Source: Nostoc sp. NMS7 (GTDB lineage Bacteria > Cyanobacteriota > Cyanobacteriia > Cyanobacteriales > Nostocaceae). From it: a DNA stretch of 64,000 bases. Below are positions 9,188 to 60,895 of this stretch, in pieces. Location: positions 1 to 64,000 of the forward strand of contig NZ_JABXKJ010000263.1 of the NCBI RefSeq assembly GCF_017115085.1. The letters are read 5' to 3'. Each line of letters begins with the position of its first letter. Positions within the stretch are counted from its first letter, which is position 1. Made by a program: the position numbers and the translations under genes. The notes under the pieces were generated by a model. It worked only from the letters and a program-made list of their open reading frames with translations, was not told where the DNA came from and did not search any database.

Positions 9188-9871
9188 TCATAAACACATT
9201 TCTACTACTTGCTCGATTAAAGGACGATAAGTAGTGTTATCTAAGTGTCCCTTGTACCAATCTTTATAAGTTTTGTTATCTAAATGTTCTTTAATAAGTT
9301 CTGCCTCGTTTAGGAGTATCCACAGATTATGGGTTGCTCTATTCCAAAAGCCATAGCTACCATTTGCTTTTAACCCGTCTAAACCGTACTTATAGCAAGC
9401 TGGACAAGTACATTCTTGTAGTCTTTTCTCTTCTTCTTGACTTACCCTACGACCTTTCCACTTGCCCAAATCCGCCACAATTCTTTCTCCTGTTCCTGGT
9501 AGTTGGATCATGCCACGAGCAGCTGGATTTCGCCAACCGCTCGAATCTACTGAATCTATACCTAGCAAAGCGGCTAAATGAAGAGTGGCTGTACCACCAA
9601 TACCAAAGACATGAAGCTTTTGAGGTTTAAATTCTTCACGTAGATGGTGAATGCTCTCTAAAACTTTTTTATAAGGCATTGCTTTAGTGGCACGTAATAA
9701 ATTTGGTACTATACCACCCAAAGCAATATATGGTTTATCTAGTAATGTTTTGTATTTTTTTATTTCATCAACATAATATTCTAAAAAATTACTAATATGA
9801 ATAACTGGAATATATGAGCCTTGTTGATAGTTTAGATTTCTTTCCATTGTACGGTAATTCACCACGTTCAA
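9188..9871 (-). CDS. TGT-like/DpdA-like transglycosylase, N-terminally truncated
   Basis: This 227-residue protein resembles the distal part of tRNA-guanine transglycosylase-fold enzymes, which include DpdA, the enzyme that swaps guanine for 7-deazaguanines in DNA. Seen are ALGGIVPNLLRAT near residue 50, KLHVFGIGGTATLHLAALLG near 90, DSVDSSGWRNPAARG near 108, and a zinc-site pattern CTCPAC followed by H 22 residues later, matching the CxCx2C...H site of TGT. The N-terminal third, which would carry the first catalytic Asp (DSGGF type), is missing. Its start overlaps the NurA-like gene by 80 bp in another frame, which suggests a deletion junction. Confidence 0.65.
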   Translation of the reverse strand: MNVVNYRTMERNLNYQQGSYIPVIHISNFLEYYVDEIKKYKTLLDKPYIALGGIVPNLLRATKAMPYKKVLESIHHLREEFKPQKLHVFGIGGTATLHLAALLGIDSVDSSGWRNPAARGMIQLPGTGERIVADLGKWKGRRVSQEEEKRLQECTCPACYKYGLDGLKANGSYGFWNRATHNLWILLNEAELIKEHLDNKTYKDWYKGHLDNTTYRPLIEQVVEMCL

Positions 9872-10703
9872 CTACACCAGCAATAAGAATGTTTGGCTTT
9901 CTTTGCTGTGCTTCCTTAATCAATTGCCGATATAGAAAGGCAATCCATGATAATGGTTCAAATAGTCTCCTTTCTACCCATTCATCACAACGATCTGGAG
10001 CTATTTTAGGGTAAATTTCAATTCCAGCTTCCTGTAAAAATTCTTTTTTTAACTGTTCAGCTAATCCAGGTTGTTCTGCGTACTGGTGGAGAAATATGTC
10101 AATATCTCTTTCAGTAAAAGGAGTATGTCCTGCATAACCACTCATCATATAGACTAGTGGGCCATGAAACATGAGAACTCGTAAGTCAGGTGTTCGTTTT
10201 AAGGCTGACAGACCACCCAGAAGTTCAGCTGTAATTCGGACAATATCTGGAAAATCTTTGCGCTCCTTACTGCCACCTTCCAAATCACCTAAAATAATTG
10301 GGTAATAATCAAAATGTTCGCGTTCTGTAATACTACGCTCTCCAGTCTTAACACGATAAGAACCAACCCGCAGCAGGATAGGAACGGGACTAAACATTTG
10401 AACTTGTCCTAGACCCCCATCAATAAAAGTTACAACTTCACCCTGAACATCTTCCCAATTTAAATCATTAATTGCTTGAACACTTAATATTTGATCCTGC
10501 CGCTCTCCCCGCGCGGCTTGGCGCATTGCTCCACGCAAGTGCGTAATAAATTTCGCTGTGTTCTTAAAATAGTTATCACGGAGACTTTCTGCAACGAGCA
10601 AAGCATTTTCAGACAGCTTGATCATTATGTGAGGCTGACGCTGTAAATCCTCCAGCAGCTTTTCATCTGTTAAACTCTGATTTTGATCGTCTTGGAAATT
10701 CAT
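9792..10703 (-). CDS. NurA-like nuclease domain protein, C-terminally truncated
   Basis: A 303-residue protein whose VVTFIDGGLGQVQ (about residue 92) is the acidic metal-binding entry of NurA-type DNA-end nucleases. FHGPLVYMMSGYAGHTPF near 205 and the IAGVVERGELPYNGKK segment near 278 also fit. The family normally continues beyond this point; here the frame ends within about 15 unrelated residues and runs into the TGT-like gene. The start at 10703 forms an ATGA overlap with the DUF6884-like gene upstream, so the two are coupled. Activity of the truncated form is doubtful. Confidence 0.6.
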   Translation of the reverse strand: MNFQDDQNQSLTDEKLLEDLQRQPHIMIKLSENALLVAESLRDNYFKNTAKFITHLRGAMRQAARGERQDQILSVQAINDLNWEDVQGEVVTFIDGGLGQVQMFSPVPILLRVGSYRVKTGERSITEREHFDYYPIILGDLEGGSKERKDFPDIVRITAELLGGLSALKRTPDLRVLMFHGPLVYMMSGYAGHTPFTERDIDIFLHQYAEQPGLAEQLKKEFLQEAGIEIYPKIAPDRCDEWVERRLFEPLSWIAFLYRQLIKEAQQRKPNILIAGVVERGELPYNGKKSKLSTRLIYSSYSY

Positions 10704-11476
10704 AAACAACTAACCTCAACACCTAGCTGGGCTAGTATTCGCCTAGCCTCACTTGAATGAAAAGAACTGACAGGTAATCCTGTCAGGTAACTCACTAGCC
10801 ACTTAGGAGATACCCGTTGTCCATCAACCAGTAAATACCATGACTGATAAGAGGCTGGATTACCCTTTCCCTCTGCTAAAGCCTGACGAGCTGCATCAAG
10901 TACCTGTGCAGATGTCATTTCAACTTCTACTCCTCTAAGACAAGCTTTGCCTCGAAGGGTATTGGTTGAATGATTTTGATTTAGCTCAGGAGGCTTGCCA
11001 TATAGCCAGGTGTGCAGCTTGACAAGTTTTTTCCCTAGAGAACCTGTAGCAATTTGCACATCTGAGCCTGATTGAATAACTCTATCGTATCCTTCTAATG
11101 CTTTGAAATAATCACGACCCAGACATATGCAAATTTCTGGGTAAAGTCTGGCATTGAGAATATGGTGTAATTTAGCAATTACCTCTGGCTGCAACTGTTG
11201 AGATCGCTGCTTTGTCATTCGGCGATCATAGCACGGAATAGGATAATCCTGGAAGATAAGTCCAAACTCAGCTGAGAGGACATATGTATCTGGTGGATTT
11301 GGGGGTTTTTGTTGCAAAAAACGACGCAGTAAATGGAAAACTGGCCCATCATAACGTGCGATCGCAGGCATTAATCCCTCACCTGAAAGCTTGCGTTGGG
11401 AGCAGGCAACAATAAGCAAATATCGTCCTTGAGAATGCACCCTTTGAATATACGCCAGTCTACTTTTGTATGTCAA
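10700..11476 (-). CDS. DUF6884-like protein
   Basis: A 258-residue protein beginning, after a short lead, with LLIVACSQRKLSGEGLMPA (near residue 20), the cysteine-containing motif I associate with DUF6884, a YaaA-related family often found near 7-deazaguanine DNA-modification genes. TYVLSAEFGLIFQDYPIPCYDRRM follows near 65. The C-terminal part (about 185-258) is a separate small domain with SWYLLVDGQRVSPKWLVSYLTG. It is first in a three-gene set with the NurA-like and TGT-like genes; I infer a shared role in DNA modification or its control. Confidence 0.6.
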   Translation of the reverse strand: MTYKSRLAYIQRVHSQGRYLLIVACSQRKLSGEGLMPAIARYDGPVFHLLRRFLQQKPPNPPDTYVLSAEFGLIFQDYPIPCYDRRMTKQRSQQLQPEVIAKLHHILNARLYPEICICLGRDYFKALEGYDRVIQSGSDVQIATGSLGKKLVKLHTWLYGKPPELNQNHSTNTLRGKACLRGVEVEMTSAQVLDAARQALAEGKGNPASYQSWYLLVDGQRVSPKWLVSYLTGLPVSSFHSSEARRILAQLGVEVSCL

Positions 11477-32697: not shown

Positions 32698-33081
32698 ATG
32701 GAACGAAGTCCACCATACAAAATTGACCCATCGCCTGTCTCCGGCGATGTGGAGTTTTCAAGAGATCGACTCATCCCCGAAAGCCAACTTGAGGCGATCG
32801 TGGAAAGGCTCGTCAAAAAAAAACTAGCCCAAATGCTAGGAGTCAATGCCGATGCCCAACACCAAAGGCAGTGGTACGACACAGAGGATGCTTGGGACAG
32901 ATTGGACTTAGGCAACTCCGAGCAATTGCGTGAGATGGTACGCTCTGGGTTTTTGAGATTTGGGATTGAAGTACGTGATGTGCGGAGTCCTACCTCTCGA
33001 ACTGCAAGATATCAGTTTCACATTAAAAAATGTGGGGATCGATTATCCTTGCCACCTGAAAAACGGCAAGGAAAAAAATAG
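32698..33081 (+). CDS. Hypothetical DNA-binding-like protein
   Basis: A 127-residue protein. The middle has IPESQLEAIVERLVKKKLAQ; the C-terminal part, YDTEDAWDRLDLGNSEQLRE then RSGFLRFGIEVRDVRS, resembles excisionase-like winged HTH proteins in which a residue pattern of helix plus wing reads DNA. No named family is recognised. It lies 53 bp upstream of the ParB-like gene. Confidence 0.5.
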   Translation: MERSPPYKIDPSPVSGDVEFSRDRLIPESQLEAIVERLVKKKLAQMLGVNADAQHQRQWYDTEDAWDRLDLGNSEQLREMVRSGFLRFGIEVRDVRSPTSRTARYQFHIKKCGDRLSLPPEKRQGKK

Positions 33082-33133
33082 CGTAATCGTGGATGATTAC
33101 GCCCAAGAAAAATGTTTACATTATGGTTACATT

Positions 33134-34348
33134 ATGACACAAACTTTACTTTCACGAAACCCAGATGTTTCGGTGCAATCGAACACCCGTAAGGATTTAT
33201 CTGCTATCAATCCTGCAAATATTCAAGTACCATTCGGCACTTATGTTGATGCAGAAGAAGTAGAAAAAATAGTTCAGATTTTAAACAATAAGGGTAACTT
33301 ACCCGATATTATTGTTACCCCAGAGGATATATTAATTAGCGGGATAAATGCCCTAGAAGCCGCTAAGAAAACAGGACAACCTCTGATTCTAGTATCAGTT
33401 CAAAAAGTAAAAATAGAGCATTCATTGATACAGATAGCTTCTATCAAGCTAGACGGTGGTACACAGTCCAGGGCGGGTATAAACCAACAAATAATTGAAG
33501 AGTATGCACAACTCTGGCGTGAGGGCGTAAAGTTCCCCCCAGTAGTCGTTTTTTATGATGGACAAAGTTATTGGCTGGCAGACGGCTTTCATCGTTGCAT
33601 CAGCGCAACTGCCGTTCTGATTCTGGAAATTGAAGCCGATATCCGCCAGGGAACTCGCAGAGAGGCGGTGCTTTTCTCGGTCGGTGCCAACGGCAACCAC
33701 GGGTTGCGGCGAACCAACGAGGATAAACGCCGGGCTGTTAGCAACTTGCTCAGTGATGAGGAATGGCAGAAATGGAGCGATCGCGCGATCGCTAAACAGT
33801 GCGGTGTGAGCAATAGTTTCGTGGGCAAAATTCGTGGTGAACTACCTCCATCTGTGAACGGTACACAGATAGAACCAGAAACAAGACAGGTTACTCGCCA
33901 AGGTACTACCTATACTCAAAAGCTTGCCTCTTCATATAAACTCTGGCTTCCAAAATTGATGGAGAAAGTAGAAATAATCGGTGGTGACTATAAGGGCAAA
34001 TTTGCTCAGGTGCGGGTGATCACCGGAAATGCGGCTATGTGCCTGATTGAAGGTGACAAGGAAAGTGAGCAGAAAACTATTTTTTTGTCGCACCTCAAAC
34101 CAGTTCAAGACGCGATGACAACAGCACCCACATCTGTCAAGCAAGAGTTAAGAGAGATCCAAAAAGAAGCAGGGTTTGGTGCAAGTGAACAACTATTTAC
34201 AGAAGCTCCTCGGAATGAAGGAGCGCCACCATTGGAGCAACTTCCAGCCTTAATTACCAATTTCAATACCACTGGCGTTGCTTTGGTGACTGAGGTAGCG
34301 ATCGCACTCATGCGCCTGTCTCCAGAGGAGGTAAATCAGGCAATCTGA
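33134..34348 (+). CDS. ParB-like nuclease/partition-type protein
   Basis: A 404-residue protein. Residues about 75-190 match the ParB/Srx fold: IKLDGGTQSRAGINQQII, PPVVVFYDGQSYWLADGFHR and RQGTRREAVLFSVGANGNHG. An HTH follows (WSDRAIAKQCGVSNSFVGKI near 230), then a KOW-like segment, VEIIGGDYKGKFAQVRVITG near 285. ParB-domain proteins occur in partition and also in DNA-modification systems. ATG 33134 begins after an unrelated open stretch. One of the 25-bp palindromes lies inside the gene at 33848-33872. Confidence 0.75.
   Translation: MTQTLLSRNPDVSVQSNTRKDLSAINPANIQVPFGTYVDAEEVEKIVQILNNKGNLPDIIVTPEDILISGINALEAAKKTGQPLILVSVQKVKIEHSLIQIASIKLDGGTQSRAGINQQIIEEYAQLWREGVKFPPVVVFYDGQSYWLADGFHRCISATAVLILEIEADIRQGTRREAVLFSVGANGNHGLRRTNEDKRRAVSNLLSDEEWQKWSDRAIAKQCGVSNSFVGKIRGELPPSVNGTQIEPETRQVTRQGTTYTQKLASSYKLWLPKLMEKVEIIGGDYKGKFAQVRVITGNAAMCLIEGDKESEQKTIFLSHLKPVQDAMTTAPTSVKQELREIQKEAGFGASEQLFTEAPRNEGAPPLEQLPALITNFNTTGVALVTEVAIALMRLSPEEVNQAI
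33848..33872. repeat. 25-bp palindrome, copy 2 of 4 (inside the ParB-like gene)
   Basis: CCATCTGT, centre GAACGGTAC, ACAGATAG: one arm base differs from the other copies. It encodes NGTQI, close to YGTQI encoded by copy 1. Confidence 0.75.
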
Positions 34349-34428: not shown

Positions 34429-34509
34429 ATGGTAAACATTGCTTATGAAGAATTCATGGGTGATAAACCCGACTATGCCTATGACGAGGAGGAGGAATGC
34501 AGCAATTAA
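34429..34509 (+). CDS. Possible 26-residue acidic peptide
   Basis: ATG 34429 opens a short frame (MVNIAYEEFMGDKPDY, then an acidic run) that ends inside the start of the AlkB-like gene, overlapping it by 13 bp. It may only serve to carry ribosomes to the next start, or be chance. Confidence 0.25.
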   Translation: MVNIAYEEFMGDKPDYAYDEEEECSN

Positions 34510-35384
34510 CTTTATTTGATATCCCTACCACGCTGCCGATTGAATATCATCCTGGCTTTTTGCATAGCACCAAAGCCGATGCTCTACTAACTCATTGCAA
34601 AGCCTTAGCATGGCAGCAAAATGAGATACGAATGCTGGGCAAACCACTTCAAGTCCCACGATTGGAGTGTATGTATGGTGTACCTGGAGCTAGTTATCTG
34701 TACTCCAACAGCGTCACCCTTGATGCACTGCCTTGGACACCGGAGTTGTTGAATTTACGCGATCGCATTACAGCTTTTTGTGGTCATTTCTTTGATATTG
34801 TCATCGGCAACCGCTATCGCAATGGCCAAGACTCTATCGGTTGGCATTCTGATGATGAGCCATCGATGGGGTATAGACCGGCGATCGCCTCTATTAGTTT
34901 GGGATGCGATCGGGATGAAAAATATTTTCATAGCAGAAGCTATTTAGTTCCGCATAGAAAATTTGGTGAGTGGTTTGAAGTCAGCAAAGAAAGAGACGAT
35001 ACCCTATCTCTAAGTTTATTTGATGCGCTTGAAATTGAGTTTACTGGGTATCGCCCAACTTGTAATCAGTACTTAAGGCAGTCTTTTAAATTAACGATTG
35101 AAAATTCAGGCTTATCTGTTGAGGGATTATTTACTGAAGGTAGATATTCTAGTGAGCTTTATCAGCCGCTAAGACTTCTTTATTTAGGAATCACTAACTT
35201 ATCTTTACTTGAAAAGATTGTTAATTTCTCGTTTCAAACTTTACCTGCAAGTATTGGAACGTGTAGGAATCCACAAGAGTTAGAAGATAAGGCTTGGGCT
35301 GTTTGTAATACAGCAGCAGAACTTCTCTTAGGACAAGACCTTTTTGATATCGAAGAATCTATAGCTCGCTACAAAGGTAAGTGA
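34497..35384 (+). CDS. AlkB-like dioxygenase domain with unrelated C-terminus
   Basis: A 295-residue protein. Residues 1-142 match AlkB (Fe/2-oxoglutarate enzymes that remove alkyl groups from bases): NRYRNGQDSIGWHSDDEPSM with the HxD iron ligands, and AIASISLGCDRD. After that the family should supply a distal His and an RxNxTxR motif; neither appears, in this or the other frames. Instead about 150 residues of unknown sequence follow (from FGEWFEVSKERDDT). Demethylase activity is therefore doubtful. GAGGAGGAGG precedes the start. Confidence 0.7.
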   Translation: MQQLTLFDIPTTLPIEYHPGFLHSTKADALLTHCKALAWQQNEIRMLGKPLQVPRLECMYGVPGASYLYSNSVTLDALPWTPELLNLRDRITAFCGHFFDIVIGNRYRNGQDSIGWHSDDEPSMGYRPAIASISLGCDRDEKYFHSRSYLVPHRKFGEWFEVSKERDDTLSLSLFDALEIEFTGYRPTCNQYLRQSFKLTIENSGLSVEGLFTEGRYSSELYQPLRLLYLGITNLSLLEKIVNFSFQTLPASIGTCRNPQELEDKAWAVCNTAAELLLGQDLFDIEESIARYKGK

Positions 35385-35385
35385 A

Positions 35386-36915
35386 ATGCATACAACTTTA
35401 CTTGATAGCCTTCTGGCTAAACCAATTGCATTTCATCGCATCTTTGCAACTATAGGCGGCGGTGCAACAGAAGGTTTATTTCTTAGCCAAGCTTATTATT
35501 GGTCTTTCCGTACCACGCTTGAAGACAATTGGTTCTACAAAACTCAAAAAGAGTGGTGTCAGGAAACTGCGCTTACTCGTAACGAGCAAACAACTGCAAG
35601 AAAAAGATTACTCAAGCTTAAAATTCTTGAGGAAAAAAAGGAGGGACTGCCTAGCCAATTGTTTTATAGGATTAATAGAGAAAGGCTTTATGAGCTTATT
35701 CTCACTAAAGGCTCAAACCCTGATGGTTGTCAGATTGTTGAAAACGACAATCTTGATATATCCAGTTTGCAAAATCCTGTAAGCAAGCCTGCGACAAACA
35801 ACATTCAATCTATATATACAGAAAATACTTCAGAGACTACCTCCCCCCTTACCCCCCAAGGGGAAAAAGAGGGAGAGAGAAATTTTGGATTTGAAATAGG
35901 GCAAGAAGCAACAACTCAACCTTTTGCTACGTTGTTAAGTCAGCCAAAAACTACGCAACTAACAAGCAAGCCTTTCATGCAGGCAATTGTTCCGGCGGCG
36001 GTGGCAATCGCCAAAACTGATAAATTTTTTACAGGGAAAACTCGTGACCAACAAAAATACGATCGCTGGGCTGAAACTGCACATCCAGCGCTTGTCTATG
36101 GTGGAGAAGATACACCCTGGTTAGAACCTCCAACTAGAGCAGAATTTATAAGATTCAATCAAAGCTTTGTTGATTGGCATACTAGCAGGTGCATGGAAAA
36201 GTTTCATAAGCAAGATAAATTCCAAGCTGAAGCTGATTTTGTAGCTTCACTAAGAAACACTGCTGAAAGCTGTGCAAGCCGATGGGCTGAATATCACAAG
36301 CACATGATCTGTCATGCTGCGACAGCTGCGGCCAGGATGAATAATGGCATTGAAATAAGCGACATTGAAAAACAAAAGTTTATAAAACACCAACGGGCAT
36401 TTACCGGAATTACGCCAGAGTCAACCGAGAGCATAGACCCGAAAATCATGGCATCTGCACAACCAGCACCTATAACCCCAGTGCTTGAATCAGTCGCAAC
36501 CGTCCCCGACGACATTTGGGATAAAGTCAAGTCTGCAACCGACGAATATGAAATTGCAGCTACAGCAACCCCAGAGGGCGCAGAAAATGCCCAGATGTAC
36601 AAACATTCTATTGACCTAGAAGCCCGTGCTTACTATGAAAAATTAGACCAGCAAAATAAAAAATCACAATCTTTGTCTACTGCCGTTGAATCGGTTGATA
36701 GTCCAAAACCTATTGCAGAACAGATTAAAAATCTGGCGAGTAGCAAGTCGATGCCAAGAGTTAGCGATCAAGATAAGGAAGATAAAACCAGGCTATCCCA
36801 TTGGAATGATTTGTTGGCAACTGGATTGCCAACAGTTATGGCAGACGCAGAAAGACAAGCATTAAAGGCTGGCTACATCATCGTTGACGGACAAGCTGTA
36901 GAACCGGAGTTTTAA
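35386..36915 (+). CDS. Phage-type replication HTH protein
   Basis: A 509-residue protein whose first 110 residues match the winged-helix found in phage and plasmid replication proteins: AFHRIFATIGGGATEGLFLS, YKTQKEWCQETALTRNEQTT and LKLKILEEKKEGLPSQLFYR. The long remainder is low-complexity linkers and a helical region (DRWAETAHPALVYGGEDTPW). It starts 1 bp after the AlkB-like stop. I infer a replisome organiser for the element. Confidence 0.7.
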   Translation: MHTTLLDSLLAKPIAFHRIFATIGGGATEGLFLSQAYYWSFRTTLEDNWFYKTQKEWCQETALTRNEQTTARKRLLKLKILEEKKEGLPSQLFYRINRERLYELILTKGSNPDGCQIVENDNLDISSLQNPVSKPATNNIQSIYTENTSETTSPLTPQGEKEGERNFGFEIGQEATTQPFATLLSQPKTTQLTSKPFMQAIVPAAVAIAKTDKFFTGKTRDQQKYDRWAETAHPALVYGGEDTPWLEPPTRAEFIRFNQSFVDWHTSRCMEKFHKQDKFQAEADFVASLRNTAESCASRWAEYHKHMICHAATAAARMNNGIEISDIEKQKFIKHQRAFTGITPESTESIDPKIMASAQPAPITPVLESVATVPDDIWDKVKSATDEYEIAATATPEGAENAQMYKHSIDLEARAYYEKLDQQNKKSQSLSTAVESVDSPKPIAEQIKNLASSKSMPRVSDQDKEDKTRLSHWNDLLATGLPTVMADAERQALKAGYIIVDGQAVEPEF

Positions 36916-36980
36916 CATGGATATTGAAGGCATAAACTATACCAAGCAACCTAGCTGTACGGTTGGAGGAGGCGCAATAA

Positions 36981-37364
36981 ATGTGTGACTGCGATCGCCC
37001 CGACTATGACGACGAAGAGGGAGAAGAATTGTACGACGAGAACGAGGTAGTGGCAGAATTGTCTTTTCCTTGCTGTGAGTGCAATCACCCTATAAAAGCA
37101 GGTGAAAAATACAGGCACATTAGAGGCTGTTGGGATGGCGATTGGTCTACTTATGGGATGTGTTTAAGTTGCTCAAGAGTGAGCGATCGCTTGTCAAAAG
37201 AACTTAATGCTTGCCACTGTTTTGGCGGTCTTTACGATGAATTGATTAATTCCGATATTCTCTGTCGTGATGAGCTTGATCGAGAAACTTATTTTTGCAG
37301 TTGTACTTGGTTAAAAGTTGTGAGCCAAAGTCCTCTCAGGTGTGACACGGAGGAAACCGTATGA
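36981..37364 (+). CDS. Cys-rich, probable zinc-binding protein
   Basis: A 127-residue protein, acidic at the start (YDDEEGEELYDENE) and with two cysteine clusters: FPCCECNHPIKAGEKYRH near residue 30 and GMCLSCSRVSDRL near 58, then further Cys-x-His near 78. CxxC pairs fit one or two zinc fingers. GGAGGAGG lies just upstream. Its stop overlaps the next start by 4 bp. Confidence 0.6.
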   Translation: MCDCDRPDYDDEEGEELYDENEVVAELSFPCCECNHPIKAGEKYRHIRGCWDGDWSTYGMCLSCSRVSDRLSKELNACHCFGGLYDELINSDILCRDELDRETYFCSCTWLKVVSQSPLRCDTEETV

Positions 37365-37912
37365 ATTTTTCTTCTCGTCAACTTGAACTCATAAGCTCCC
37401 AAGTTAACCTGATCGCCCCTGCCAAAATCATGATTTGCGAAGGCTTTGCCTATAGGCAGATCCCAGATTATCATCATCACATTCAGTGCCACATCAAAGG
37501 ATCTAAAAAGCCTCTGTTAATTATAGAAACCGATCCTAGCACTTCATTGCATCGCGCACTTTTTTGGCAAACAAAACTCATGGGTTTTGACGTGAAGCAC
37601 GTTGCTCATATTCAGCGAGATGACGAAGGTGGTTGTGCATTGTCGGTCGAACTTTGGCTGGTTGACAATAAACAGACCAATGAGGAGATAGCAGCCAAGG
37701 TAAAATCTTGCCTCAATTGTCTTATGGGAGAATTTCACCCAGTAGTTGATAGCGGTTTGTATTCCTACTCTGGTGAGTGCTGCCATTTTGAAGATGGTGT
37801 CCGCGAACAGGTTTTGGAAATTATCGGAGTGGAGAGCGAGTATTTGGTGGAAGTTGAACAGATGTTTGAGCGAGTGGGACAGCAATGCCCAATGTGGGAG
37901 CCAAAGAAATGA
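37361..37912 (+). CDS. Hypothetical protein in the DpdA operon
   Basis: A 183-residue soluble protein (MNFSSRQLELISSQVNL, YHHHIQCHIKGSKKPLLIIE, GGCALSVELWLVDNKQTNEE). No family is recognised. The ATGA-type overlaps on both sides (37361-37364 and 37909-37912) tie it to the Cys-rich protein and to DpdA, so it is probably part of the same process. Confidence 0.55.
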   Translation: MNFSSRQLELISSQVNLIAPAKIMICEGFAYRQIPDYHHHIQCHIKGSKKPLLIIETDPSTSLHRALFWQTKLMGFDVKHVAHIQRDDEGGCALSVELWLVDNKQTNEEIAAKVKSCLNCLMGEFHPVVDSGLYSYSGECCHFEDGVREQVLEIIGVESEYLVEVEQMFERVGQQCPMWEPKK

Positions 37913-38889
37913 TTGAGCCAGCGTATGAAGATTTTGTACAAAATCATCCGGCGATCGCCAATCGTTTATGTACAGAATCGCCTCCCGGTATCCTATTCTT
38001 TATCGGGAGCAGTCCAAGCCAGGCTGCTACTATCGTTAATCCCGACTTCCCTTGTGCTGGGGTGATGATCAGCGTGAATCAGCTGCAAAAGAGGAAGAGT
38101 GATTTTGTAGCCAAAGACTGGATTTTAGATTCAGGCGCTTTTACTGAAATATCAAGATATGGTCAATATCGTTCATCTGTTGGGGAGTACGCTATGCAGA
38201 TCAGGCGTTGGAGTCAATGCGGTAATTTGCTGATTGCTGTATCCCAAGACTGGATGTGTGAGCCGTTCATTCTTGAACGAACCGGACTGACGGTGACACA
38301 ACACCAGCAATTGACCATTGAAAGATACGATGCATTGCTTCCCCTAGTACCCCAAGTGCCGATTATGCCTGTGATCCAGGGATATAAAATCTCGGAATAC
38401 CTGAGCCACATTGACCAGTATGGCGATCGCTTACTCCCAAATATGTGGGTAGGTGTTGGTAGTGTTTGCAAGCGCAACTCCGATCTGAACCAAATTGAAG
38501 ATATTTTAGCCAGCATCAAAAATAAACGCCCCGACTTGCGACTACATGGGTTTGGATTAAAACAAACTGCTCTGGAGTCGCCAGTAGTGCAATCGCTTCT
38601 CTATAGCTGTGATTCTATGGCGTGGTCTTACCCACTGAGGTTTAAGTCACCGGGGGATGATTTTGTGCAGAATCAAATGACGCTTGCTCACAAATATCAA
38701 GTTGGGGTACAGGAGCGAATTGAAGGCAGCTATGTCCGCAAAATACCTCGCACATCTGGAGCGGGAAACGGACAAGGACGTAAGCCAAAATGGAGCCACA
38801 AGACCAAACCCGTAAGACTTCCGGTGAAATTCAGAAATGGGAAAAGTTTAGAGGATTTAAAGTCCATCGCCCAGGAGTGGGATAAATGA
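37909..38889 (+). CDS. dpdA: DpdA-type 7-deazaguanine DNA transglycosylase
   Basis: A 326-residue TGT-fold protein of the phage DpdA group, which exchanges guanine in DNA for preQ0 or a relative. In order: WILDSGAFTEISRYGQYRS near residue 69 (the first catalytic Asp region), LLIAVSQDWMCEPFIL near 105, VPIMPVIQGYKISEYL near 150, MWVGVGSVCKRNSDLNQIE near 178, LRLHGFGLKQTAL near 208, and DSMAWSYPLRF near 230. ATG 37909 gives a 4-bp overlap upstream; the frame is open 24 bp further. It overlaps the methyltransferase by 4 bp. No preQ0 synthesis genes are in the window, so the host would supply it. Confidence 0.82.
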   Translation: MIEPAYEDFVQNHPAIANRLCTESPPGILFFIGSSPSQAATIVNPDFPCAGVMISVNQLQKRKSDFVAKDWILDSGAFTEISRYGQYRSSVGEYAMQIRRWSQCGNLLIAVSQDWMCEPFILERTGLTVTQHQQLTIERYDALLPLVPQVPIMPVIQGYKISEYLSHIDQYGDRLLPNMWVGVGSVCKRNSDLNQIEDILASIKNKRPDLRLHGFGLKQTALESPVVQSLLYSCDSMAWSYPLRFKSPGDDFVQNQMTLAHKYQVGVQERIEGSYVRKIPRTSGAGNGQGRKPKWSHKTKPVRLPVKFRNGKSLEDLKSIAQEWDK

Positions 38890-40631
38890 TTGAATTAGCC
38901 CCACCCAACCTTGGAAAATTATTCACCAGTTGCACCAAACGCCCAGCCACCGCAGAAGACATTAAAATTCTCTCCCCTGGCGACTGGATTAGCGAGAAAG
39001 ATTGTCCTTGGTCTTGGCAGTTTAAAAACTCTTGTCAGGATATGGCAGTGGGTGTGTGGGAAGGGAAGGAGTTTTTTATCCCCACAAATCTACTGATGGT
39101 TTGCACGGTTGTTGAAACCAATCCTGTTGAAAAGTTTCTGGAATCTGATTGTAAATTTAAAGTAGGTGATCGCGTTCGAGATACTTTTGGTGATAGGTTG
39201 AAAGGAAGGTTAGAGCGAAAAGGAATTGTTCTTGAGCTTTGTAAGAAATGGGCTATAGTTCGTTGGGATTGTCAGCCAGAGAGTCATGTAGGTGGCTGTC
39301 AGTGGAGTTATGAATATTTAGAAATTGAAAAGTCATTTAAACCAGTTCTATCACCAGGTGCACCGATCGCAGTTACCTTATTCGCTGGCGGCGGCGGTGT
39401 CGAGGCTGGCATGGTGGAAGCTGGGATACGTCCACTTATTGCGGTGGAATTTGACCCGAAAAAGCCTAAATTGAGTGGTGCGATCACTGACACTCACGAA
39501 CGCAATTTTGGCGAATACGGTTGCCAAGTCGAGCGAAAAACTGTTCAGGAAATATCAAAGTTAAGGTTTCCATTCGTACCACATACTATCGATTTTCTCC
39601 ACGCTTCCCCGATGTGTAGCAATTTTAGTGTTGCCAAGGATGGGGTTATCGAGACACAAGATGACATTGATATGGCGACCGCGGTTGCCGAAATTATCCG
39701 TTACCTGAAGCCTAAATTCTTCACGCTGGAAAACGTGAAGCGTTACCGTGACTCTCAAAGCTTCAAAGTCATCGCCCAGGCATTAGAAGAAGAGGGCTAT
39801 CTCTGGCAAGGACAAATCATGACTTTACTGGACTGCCAAGCCAGAGAGCGGTTCATTGTCCGCGCTGCTAAAGGCTGGTTGCCACCATTGCCGGAGCCAA
39901 TTCAACCAGTGGGATGGTATGAAATGGTATCTGGCCTTATTCCCAAAATGACAGATTCAGAATTGGTTTCAGGGCAAAAGAAAGCACTTGAAGAATTTCT
40001 TTCAACAAACGAACCTACACCATTGTTAATTCAGAGAATAGGAGCAAGAAAGAGAGAGTACAGAGTCAAACCCGCCCATCTCCCTTGCAGTACGATACTG
40101 CGATCGCACTTCACCGATGGCAAAGGCAATAACCGCAATAAGTTCGCCGATATTTGGCTACCCTTCTCCTTTGGAGACGCAAGCGCGAACGACACCGCTC
40201 AGGGTGAACCCGGTGGAACAGTCAAATCACTGTCCCTTGAAGCAGCAGCGCGGTTACAAGGTTTTCCTGATTGGTATGAATTCCCCCCAGATACCGCCAC
40301 TGCTGGCTCGATTATTGGTTATTCAGTGCCACCAAAATTTGCAGCGCGATTATTTAAATCGCTGCAACAACCACCGCCAACTGAGATCCAAATACAAATG
40401 TGCCAGGAGCGCATCATCCAGCACAATTGGCATATTCAGAATCTAGATGTGCTACCACAAACTAAGGATATCAAGGAAGCGATTAAGAAGGCTAAAGGTG
40501 CGATCGCTTCTGAACAAGATCGCATTAATCAACTGCTGGAGGATCTGATTATCTGTCGGCAATTTATTGCTTTAGGATGGGATCGCTCTCAGGCACGAAA
40601 TGAGACTCTGAAGCTATTGCAGCGTGGTTAA
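38886..40631 (+). CDS. DNA (cytosine-5-)-methyltransferase
   Basis: A 581-residue enzyme. Motif I is VTLFAGGGGVEAGMVEAG near residue 158; motif IV is FLHASPMCSNFS near 240, with the catalytic Cys but SPMCS instead of the usual PPCQ; motif VI FFTLENVKRYRD near 278; motif VIII CQARERFIVRAAKG near 318; motif X IIGYSVPPKFAARLF near 475. A domain of about 150 residues precedes motif I (LSPGDWISEKDCPW, KFKVGDRVRDTFG) and is unrecognised. No cognate restriction gene is adjacent. It is translationally coupled to DpdA. Confidence 0.88.
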   Translation: MIELAPPNLGKLFTSCTKRPATAEDIKILSPGDWISEKDCPWSWQFKNSCQDMAVGVWEGKEFFIPTNLLMVCTVVETNPVEKFLESDCKFKVGDRVRDTFGDRLKGRLERKGIVLELCKKWAIVRWDCQPESHVGGCQWSYEYLEIEKSFKPVLSPGAPIAVTLFAGGGGVEAGMVEAGIRPLIAVEFDPKKPKLSGAITDTHERNFGEYGCQVERKTVQEISKLRFPFVPHTIDFLHASPMCSNFSVAKDGVIETQDDIDMATAVAEIIRYLKPKFFTLENVKRYRDSQSFKVIAQALEEEGYLWQGQIMTLLDCQARERFIVRAAKGWLPPLPEPIQPVGWYEMVSGLIPKMTDSELVSGQKKALEEFLSTNEPTPLLIQRIGARKREYRVKPAHLPCSTILRSHFTDGKGNNRNKFADIWLPFSFGDASANDTAQGEPGGTVKSLSLEAAARLQGFPDWYEFPPDTATAGSIIGYSVPPKFAARLFKSLQQPPPTEIQIQMCQERIIQHNWHIQNLDVLPQTKDIKEAIKKAKGAIASEQDRINQLLEDLIICRQFIALGWDRSQARNETLKLLQRG

Positions 40632-59312: not shown

Positions 59313-59482
59313 AAATTTTGTTGTTTGTGTGTTTTGCTTCACACTTCCAATATCGAGCCAAAAACCTACAACCTTGACTACACAAAGATTGTGTTGTAAA
59401 TCACTTGTGATTTCTCTATGATTGTCTGATGCCTTAGTTTTGATTGCCTAAGCGATCGCTTTTTCAATACCGTTATCAGATT

Positions 59483-60895
59483 ATGACATACCTAAGCCTT
59501 GGCAGAAAAAAGAGGAAAATAACTATCACGGCATCTCTAGAAGGTGTTGAGGTAGCGGAAAATGCCTTAATCCGGCTAGGGTTTGATTCAAAAAGCAACT
59601 TTGCAAAATCTCAATTTTTAGCTCCCAGTACAGTTACAAAATTTTTCCAGCGTCAGCCAATTCAGCTTGATTCCTTTAAAAGGATATGTGAGGCACTGAA
59701 ATTGAATTGGAGAGAAATTGCAGGGTTAATAGAAGAAAAACAACCAAGCCAGTCACCAACAAGTAGTTACAGCAACCCTAGTAGTGATGGGGTAGTAGAG
59801 CAAGTGCAACCAGAACACCGTAAAGTAACTGTAATAGATAAACAAACTAAAAAAACTAAAGCAGTTATCACCTTAGAAGGCAATATAGATTCGGTTCAAA
59901 ACTGGGAATTTATTCAATCTGCTGTACGAGCATATCCAGGTGACACTATAGAAATTACTGATATCAAAGAAGGCAGCATCAGATTATTTGTCAAAGGCTC
60001 TCCAGAGGATATTGAGCGGCTTATATCTCGCATCAGATCGGGCGAACTAAAAACAGTAAGAGGTTTTCCTGTTGAAGATGTTCAAATTTTGAGTGAAAGT
60101 TCTGATGATGAAAGTGTCGAATCTAACAAAAAATGGCGTTTAGTAGAGGACATTGTTAATCAGCCAGTTGAGATGCGACAATTGAGCGGTGTCGACCTCA
60201 GTGATGCCGACCTGAGCGGTGTCGACCTCAGTGATGCCGACCTGAGCGATGCCGACCTGAGCGGTGCCGACCTGAGCGGTACCAACCTGAGACGTGCCAA
60301 CCTGAGCGGTGCCAACCTGAGCGGTACCAACCTGAGTGATGCCAAGCTGATCCGTGCCAACCTGAGCGGTGCCAACCTGAGCGGTGCCAACCTGAGCGCT
60401 GCCAACCTGAGCGCTGCCTACCTGAGTGATGCCAAGCTGATCCGTGCCTACCTGATCCGTGCCAACCTGAGTGATGCCTACCTGATCCGTGCCAACCTAA
60501 GTGGTGCAAACCTGAGCCTTGCCTACCTGATGCGTGCCATCCTGAGTGATGCCAATCTGATCCGTGCCAACCTGAGTGATGCCAACCTGAGTGATGCCAA
60601 CCTGAGCGGTGCCAACCTGAGTGATGCCTACCTGAGCCTTGCCTACCTGCGTGATGCTAACCTCAGTCATGCTAACCTCAGTCATACTAACCTCAGTCAT
60701 GCTAACCTGAATGGTGCTAACCTAAGCCTTGCCTACCTGAGTGATGCCATCCTGAGCGATGTTAATTTGGAGACTGCTATTGTTGTGAACGCCTTATTTG
60801 GGAAAAGTCTAGGTCTTACAGAAAACTTGAGGCGTGACCTAGAGAAACGAGGTGCAATTTTTGGCGATCGCCCTCCAGTTCGGAGTCCAAGATAA
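59483..60895 (+). CDS. HTH / TRADD-N-like / pentapeptide-repeat protein
   Basis: A 470-residue protein in three parts. Residues 1-83: an XRE-like HTH seen in cyanobacterial STAND and conflict proteins (GVEVAENALIRLGFDSKSNF, then FFQRQPIQLDSFKRICEAL). Residues about 113-203: an alpha/beta domain with VITLEGNIDSVQNWEFIQSA and EGSIRLFVKGSPEDIERLIS, which I read as TRADD-N-like. Residues about 232-445: more than 40 pentapeptide repeats of the A(D/N)LSG type, forming a right-handed beta-helix. ATG 59483 is chosen; an upstream TTG is in frame. I infer a conflict or regulatory role with the divergent 2-TM protein. Confidence 0.7.
   Translation: MTYLSLGRKKRKITITASLEGVEVAENALIRLGFDSKSNFAKSQFLAPSTVTKFFQRQPIQLDSFKRICEALKLNWREIAGLIEEKQPSQSPTSSYSNPSSDGVVEQVQPEHRKVTVIDKQTKKTKAVITLEGNIDSVQNWEFIQSAVRAYPGDTIEITDIKEGSIRLFVKGSPEDIERLISRIRSGELKTVRGFPVEDVQILSESSDDESVESNKKWRLVEDIVNQPVEMRQLSGVDLSDADLSGVDLSDADLSDADLSGADLSGTNLRRANLSGANLSGTNLSDAKLIRANLSGANLSGANLSAANLSAAYLSDAKLIRAYLIRANLSDAYLIRANLSGANLSLAYLMRAILSDANLIRANLSDANLSDANLSGANLSDAYLSLAYLRDANLSHANLSHTNLSHANLNGANLSLAYLSDAILSDVNLETAIVVNALFGKSLGLTENLRRDLEKRGAIFGDRPPVRSPR

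Follow-up and report, generated by a model that had tools for sequence, protein, structure and literature searches.

A putative DNA-modification cassette coupling a DpdA-family transglycosylase to a C5-cytosine methyltransferase in a Nostoc prophage

The stretch of DNA analyzed here, termed the window in the following, comprises 64,000 nucleotides of contig NZ_JABXKJ010000263.1 from Nostoc sp. NMS7 and harbors a prophage locus in which the gene for a predicted DpdA-family DNA-guanine transglycosylase (37909-38889) overlaps with that for a C5-cytosine methyltransferase (38886-40631). An earlier interpretation of the letters alone (the sequence-only reading) had seen here a DNA hypermodification operon marking both guanine and cytosine. 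The coupling of the two genes in a prophage stands and is strengthened by fusions in relatives, while the marks themselves are predicted. A coupled modification of G and C is, from the sequences, well motivated. With moderate confidence we propose an early-operon cassette in which DpdA would put 7-deazaguanine into DNA and the C5 enzyme would modify cytosine, the two jointly shielding the prophage DNA. The four overlapping genes would close the early operon of a tailed prophage, whose last slot would house the DNA-modification cassette. After induction of the prophage, guanines of its DNA would be swapped by the DpdA-family enzyme for a 7-deazaguanine, likeliest preQ0 or a close derivative, that would be drawn from the queuosine pathway of the host. 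The C5 enzyme would modify cytosines of the same DNA with a 5-methyl or another one-step group, and the double mark would block host restriction enzymes reading either base.

The four genes all reside on the plus strand and encode a Cys-rich protein (CysR, 36981-37364), a protein of 183 amino acids (aa; 37361-37912), DpdA and the C5-methyltransferase. The listing of open reading frames (ORFs) agrees with the ORFs and coordinates given for them earlier, and the 4-bp ATGA overlaps said to join them are indeed present at 37361-37364, 37909-37912 and 38886-38889. Upon inspection of the sequence, GGAG-type sites were found to precede the ATGA-coupled starts. The start of DpdA in the ORF listing is 37885, and 37909 is the alternative, ATGA-coupled ATG.

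The HMM search suggested in the sequence-only reading bore out a DpdA-type enzyme: the protein matches Pfam DpdA (PF23859) with 131.5 bits at a cut-off of 27 (3.9e-38), while the model for tRNA-guanine transglycosylase (TGT), PF01702, yields no match at E<=1. A better score against tRNA TGT had been named as an outcome that would speak against a DpdA, and on the sequence side this outcome did not occur. The protein also matches phrog_1279 (4.6e-60). No match was obtained in NCBIfam (E<=1) or PADLOC (E<=0.01), including the cluster-type DpdA NF041059, nor in PDB sequence searches with the protein and its profile. An AF2 (AlphaFold2) model (pLDDT 80.3, pTM 0.76) was compared with the PDB by Foldseek, and the best 50 of 115 matches at E<=1e-3 are all TGT (best E 3.9e-6). 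Across 33 aligned DpdA sequences, the residues of the motifs DSGxF, QDWMCEPF, QG, VGxGSVC, HGFG and DSMAW are invariant or nearly so, with full invariance of D74-S75, Q157-G158, G182/G184, H213 and D235-S236; D74 and D235 we take, by analogy with TGT, to be the catalytic-type aspartates. Many phage records label relatives of this protein as queuine tRNA-ribosyltransferase, and one could conceive of a TIM-barrel transglycosylase that acts on tRNA or some other substrate and not on DNA. We consider this very improbable in view of the Pfam scores given above, the linkage of the gene to a DNA methyltransferase and the action on DNA of the phage DpdAs that were tested according to the sections of PMC6884629 considered here.

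Relatives of DpdA are present in 398 records of the phage collection searched, which lacks phage Orion. Nearly all of them (390/398) are mycobacteriophages, all share less than 60% identity and none covers 80% of the query. Homologues were found at 45 IMG/VR loci, and the 32 of these that were aligned are 28-52% identical to the window protein. Matches occur in 5 of 60 genomes of the family and, at E<=1e-3, in 3 of 388 genomes of the class, 2 of them above the cut-off (window included in each case). The closest full-length DpdA, from genome G033 (L063), shares with the window protein a C-terminal basic tail, GAGNGQGRKPKW...VRLP, that was observed in none of the 32 IMG/VR homologues. Short DpdA-like proteins of 172-226 aa are encoded on the minus strand of L056, L057 and L058 (~1390-2070), from three genomes, adjoining a gene that by eye resembles those of TraG/VirD4-type coupling proteins, and it is possible that they sit on conjugative elements. 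Away from the operon, the window itself contains another TGT/DpdA-like gene (9188-11476, minus strand; PF01702 2e-10, PADLOC DpdA 6.9e-7). It encodes a 227-aa C-terminal part and follows an ORF that by eye resembles NurA and a gene for a DUF6884 protein. Matches to it are found in 6 of 99 genomes of the family, its own included. L131, L133 and L134 keep an uninterrupted version of 341-348 aa with 70-86% identity, and the window copy looks shortened; the L131 copy adjoins a HerA-like gene, and the locus may be regarded as a candidate HerA/NurA/DpdA-like system.

The partner enzyme of DpdA, 581 aa in length, carries a C5-methyltransferase core at residues 164-494 (PF00145 2.4e-30), which PADLOC places among type II and Druantia methyltransferases and which is flanked by an N-terminal (~1-150) and a C-terminal (~497-581) shell domain. 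The signature is kept with the catalytic Cys in motif IV (SPMCSNFS), motif VI (LENV) and motif VIII (QARERF). Motif X reads GYSVPP, without the Asn expected at the position of M.HhaI Asn304. The profile alignment to M.HhaI puts a Tyr opposite Asn304 in this subfamily, and the residue following the catalytic Cys is Gln in M.HhaI, Ser in the window enzyme and Ser or Ala in its close relatives. Among 31 C5 cores, GYSV occurs in 23 and G-N in 5 distant ones, while 3 were left unscored (two cut copies and one GLCV). CmoX has Arg350 at the position equivalent to Asn304, and it is this Arg that contacts the carboxymethyl group according to the part of PMC12783734 drawn upon here. Assignment of the window enzyme to CmoX was rejected, since it features SPMC and not SPPC, and Tyr in place of Arg350. 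As Tyr is neither Asn nor Arg, the group transferred could be methyl, which we take as the default, or another one; with a cofactor-pocket residue altered, 'methyl' is an assumption. The enzymes with Asn304 changed to Tyr (23/31 cores) make up a set to examine for non-methyl C5 chemistry. Relatives of the enzyme occur in 42 of 145 genomes of the family at E<=1e-10, a count that includes the window and distant C5-methyltransferases. Contigs C64, C57, C146, C82 and C203 of the same genome hold six more C5-methyltransferase matches, some of them mere pieces. Giant fusions were encountered as well: a Dam-type domain is joined to the C5 core in L061:5989-9057 (PF05869), and in L119:1793-5812 and L120:2546-5812 a ParB-like domain comes in addition to these two.

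An argument for a joint role of the two enzymes comes from relatives in which a different TGT-like domain, here termed T2, is fused to the C5 enzyme, so that the pairing of a TGT-type transglycosylase with a C5-methyltransferase was probably selected. T2 and the C5 core reside in a single ORF in L096/G451 (Amazonocrinis) and in G532/L136. In L119 and L120 the T2 gene starts 26 bp after the C5-methyltransferase fusion gene, in G503 (L127) the T2 ORF overlaps a C5-methyltransferase piece in a different frame, and the T2 loci L137, L150 and L151 have a C5-methyltransferase within 5 kb. The T2 motifs DSGAF, VQSCQGV..YLR, GLGGWCILG, HIFG and STD stand in what we take to be the TGT order. In hhalign comparisons with DpdA, a T2 profile of 6 sequences (A5) reached 94.8% (E 5.1e-8) and one of 16 sequences (A8) 97.1% (E 6.2e-11), while a control with the unrelated A7 against A8 gave 0.1%. 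Against the single TGT of the host, the A5 profile gave a non-significant 0.4%. On these grounds T2 qualifies as a putative member of the TGT/DpdA superfamily, homologous to DpdA. This homology rests on the profile comparison because a model of T2 built from three sequences was poor (AF2, pLDDT 52.1) and its matches to TGT weak: Foldseek returned no match at E<=1e-3, the best one being a psicose epimerase-type entry (0.032), followed by TGTs and DpdA 7ui4 at E ~0.05-0.4.

T2 is hardly visible in the profile libraries. The T2 region of L096 matches neither Pfam nor PHROGs at E<=1. Scanning 16 members at E<=0.1 gave one match to phrog_1279 (0.0076) and one to phrog_25211 of unknown function (0.0007), and the TGT models of Pfam and NCBIfam were hit by none of the 16. 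Three T2 queries found no match in the 50,697 phage records (E 0.01 for one search, 1e-5 for the others), nor did one query against plasmids, and matches to PDB sequences were at chance level. T2 is carried by 18 IMG/VR loci, and 217 genomes of the family yielded 6 protein matches, two of them fragments of ~30 residues; the zero count for profile A5 in 388 class genomes carries no information without a positive genome among them. T2 may thus be a family unlisted in the libraries searched. Among the matches listed, open-access literature at title and abstract level reports no fusion of a DpdA/TGT-like domain with a C5-methyltransferase, and matches for DpdL, DpdM and DpdA2 contained nothing relevant. 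An ORF of 912 aa in L153 (7839-10577) opens with a T2 domain, and ORFs that by eye look like PP-loop/PAPS-reductase proteins lie beside T2 or C5-methyltransferase genes in L140:3260-4381, L152:8704-9690 and L120:1681-2526. A rather improbable extension is that transglycosylase (DpdA or T2) and C5 transferase act as one unit at the same sites, with a non-methyl group handled by the Tyr pocket, and thereby hypermodify both strands of a G:C-containing motif.

Several observations, laid out in this and the next paragraph, weigh against the proposed cassette. On the level of remote homology, the DpdA profile gave a non-significant 0.8% against the single host TGT in hhalign. As to the pairing, only 7 of 34 non-redundant DpdA loci have a C5-methyltransferase within 5 kb and 27 lack one, and for T2 the figures are 7 of 17 with and 10 of 17 without (some flanks being short in both sets). 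For these counts, near-identical loci had been removed (DpdA from 45 to 34, IMG/VR T2 from 18 to 14); the genome T2 loci numbered four, L128 being the same ORF as L136 and counted once. A general excess of C5-methyltransferases near T2 was rejected, as 7/17 and 7/34, compared as raw counts, are not clearly different. The other C5-methyltransferase loci inspected, which were the majority, show no transglycosylase in the ~2-17 kb of DNA available, and the closest full-length DpdA locus (L063) has no C5-methyltransferase within its 18 kb. Together with a slot content that differs between relatives, these data would fit a scenario in which DpdA and the C5-methyltransferase were acquired separately as independent cargo of a variable slot, each acting alone. 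We regard this as possible but doubtful, given that at two loci one polypeptide combines this C5 family with a TGT-like domain, and that the two are adjacent at others.

The second group of adverse points concerns the supply of the base. No base-synthesis gene was noticed beside DpdA, the targeted queries of the window having been limited to QueC, QueF and TGT, and a QueC homologue is present in 1 of the 45 IMG/VR DpdA loci (L044; host QueC as query, available flanking DNA). The sequence-only reading had the element draw on the queuosine pool of its host, and the 8.29-Mb host genome encodes its own TGT (519.5 bits), QueC, QueF and a QueD-type protein that contains two PTPS domains, so that preQ0 is plausibly made. 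What did not come out equally well is QueE, for which only a partial 22-bit match below the cut-off was found; this result says little, as the QueE model scores above its cut-off in just 1 of 14 control genomes. Further deazaguanine derivatives are reportedly the subject of a 2023 paper. In the sections of PMC6884629 considered, DpdA of phage CAjan is essential for 7-deazaguanine in DNA and confers resistance to restriction. The same sections describe the DNA of the DpdA-only phage Orion as unmodified, with phage and host both devoid of a preQ0 pathway, and report no more than traces, 50 dADG per 1e6 nt, for Salmonella phage 7-11, again with DpdA only. This precedent lowers confidence, although the host of the prophage, unlike that reported for Orion, looks pathway-competent. 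The transglycosylase could accordingly be idle, for lack of usable base or because the prophage is defective, as the incomplete-looking AlkB-like gene described below may indicate, leaving a DNA that is merely C5-modified. We hold this to be unlikely, since the motif residues of DpdA are intact and conserved and the host has the QueC, QueF, TGT and PTPS genes.

The two remaining proteins of the overlapping set had been suspected to be new partners of DpdA, a suggestion that is not supported for either. CysR (phrog_19515 7.5e-7; its PHROG matches are weak and restricted to families of unknown function) is 68% identical to its homologue in L088. The Nostoc loci L088 and L095 encode, one after another, ParB, AlkB, ..., an ASCH-like protein scoring just below the Pfam cut-off, a 97-aa protein, the CysR homologue, a 71-aa protein and a 368-aa protein. 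The 71-aa protein corresponds to the C-terminal region of the 183-aa protein, at 82% where the two align, and the 368-aa protein has the C5 shell and lacks the C5 core; DpdA is absent from this operon. In Amazonocrinis (L096), ParB, ..., CysR and a 165-aa protein with the Cys module are followed by a protein of 1231 aa made up of N shell, T2 (~285-595), a weak KOW match, C5 core and C shell. As CysR and the Cys module occur beside a C5-methyltransferase shell without DpdA, they appear to be general parts of the operon and not DpdA partners. A CysR homologue is clear in three distinct operons, a very small sample; in two of them transglycosylase and C5 core are both present, in the third both are absent. 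Confirmation of pattern matches to CysR succeeded for 0 of 139 in IMG/VR and for 3 of 25 in genome contigs, one of the latter being weak (L097, 1e-4, Chlorobiota). The 183-aa protein consists of 114 N-terminal aa and a C-terminal Cys-containing module of ~69 aa. It has no match in Pfam, PHROGs and NCBIfam (E<=1), PADLOC (E<=0.01) or IMG/VR, and chance-level matches only among PDB sequences. The N-terminal 114 aa were found nowhere else in 388 cyanobacterial genomes, IMG/VR and the loci of relatives. In the synteny search only its own copy turned up among the 388 genomes, a sample apparently without the Nostoc and Amazonocrinis genomes that carry the C-terminal module.

Upstream of the cassette, the ParB-like, AlkB-like and replication helix-turn-helix (HTH) genes seen earlier are recovered by Pfam and PHROG matches, all on the plus strand, with the qualification that the AlkB-like gene looks incomplete. 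The ParB-like gene (32960-34348; phrog_1033 2.7e-22) begins with TTG 32960 in the ORF listing, while by eye its L095 homologue starts at an internal Met; it is conserved in L095 (phmmer E 7e-152) and L096 (1e-130). The AlkB-like 2OG-Fe(II) oxygenase (34497-35384) matches PF13532 (1.5e-14) over profile positions 4-134 of 194 and aligns with its L095 homologue over only ~143 residues, the second half being divergent. A His of the L095 protein, presumably the distal one in the iron site, apparently has no counterpart here, in a region where the alignment is weak, and the protein is perhaps not an active oxygenase. It is followed by a replication-initiation O/DnaD-like HTH protein (35386-36915; phrog_9773 2.5e-33). 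Judged by its nearby genes for major head, scaffold, endolysin, repressor-like HTH and HNH proteins, the locus is a tailed prophage. Farther away, at 59444-60895, the window encodes a pentapeptide-repeat protein whose N-terminal domain is TRADD-like (PF20694 3e-14).

DpdA marks and cytosine marks have hitherto been known to shield phages separately. The union of a TGT-like domain with a C5-methyltransferase in one polypeptide is a genetic sign that guanine replacement and cytosine modification are coupled in some phages, and T2 points to candidate DNA transglycosylases beyond the profile libraries searched.

Among known systems, the bacterial Dpd restriction-modification cluster resembles the cassette in its TGT-like DNA transglycosylase, but the DpdA models of NCBIfam and PADLOC do not match the window DpdA, and the profile searches of the operon brought up no cluster gene. 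CmoX, the DNA cytosine C5-carboxymethyltransferase of Synechococcus phage S-B43, is alike in its C5-methyltransferase fold and ParB-domain neighbors, and both enzymes are altered at the M.HhaI Asn304 position, as far as the part of PMC12783734 drawn upon here goes. CmoX differs by Arg350 and SPPC versus Tyr and SPMC, and neither a CmoA nor a ligase is found among the annotated genes of the Nostoc operon, no genome search having been aimed at CmoA. With phage DpdA (PF23859, 'DeoxyPurine in DNA protein A', phrog_1279) the window enzyme shares the family match, the TGT fold and the conserved motif residues; the biochemically studied DpdAs of CAjan, 9g and Rosebush may belong to this Pfam family as well. 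Unlike phage DpdA, it is coupled to a C5-methyltransferase, carries the C-terminal basic tail and stands without a noticed base-synthesis gene beside it. In having DpdA with no base-synthesis genes at hand it parallels Orion and Salmonella phage 7-11, as described in the sections of PMC6884629 considered, but in contrast to these DpdA-only phages the prophage resides in a host that encodes queuosine-pathway genes.

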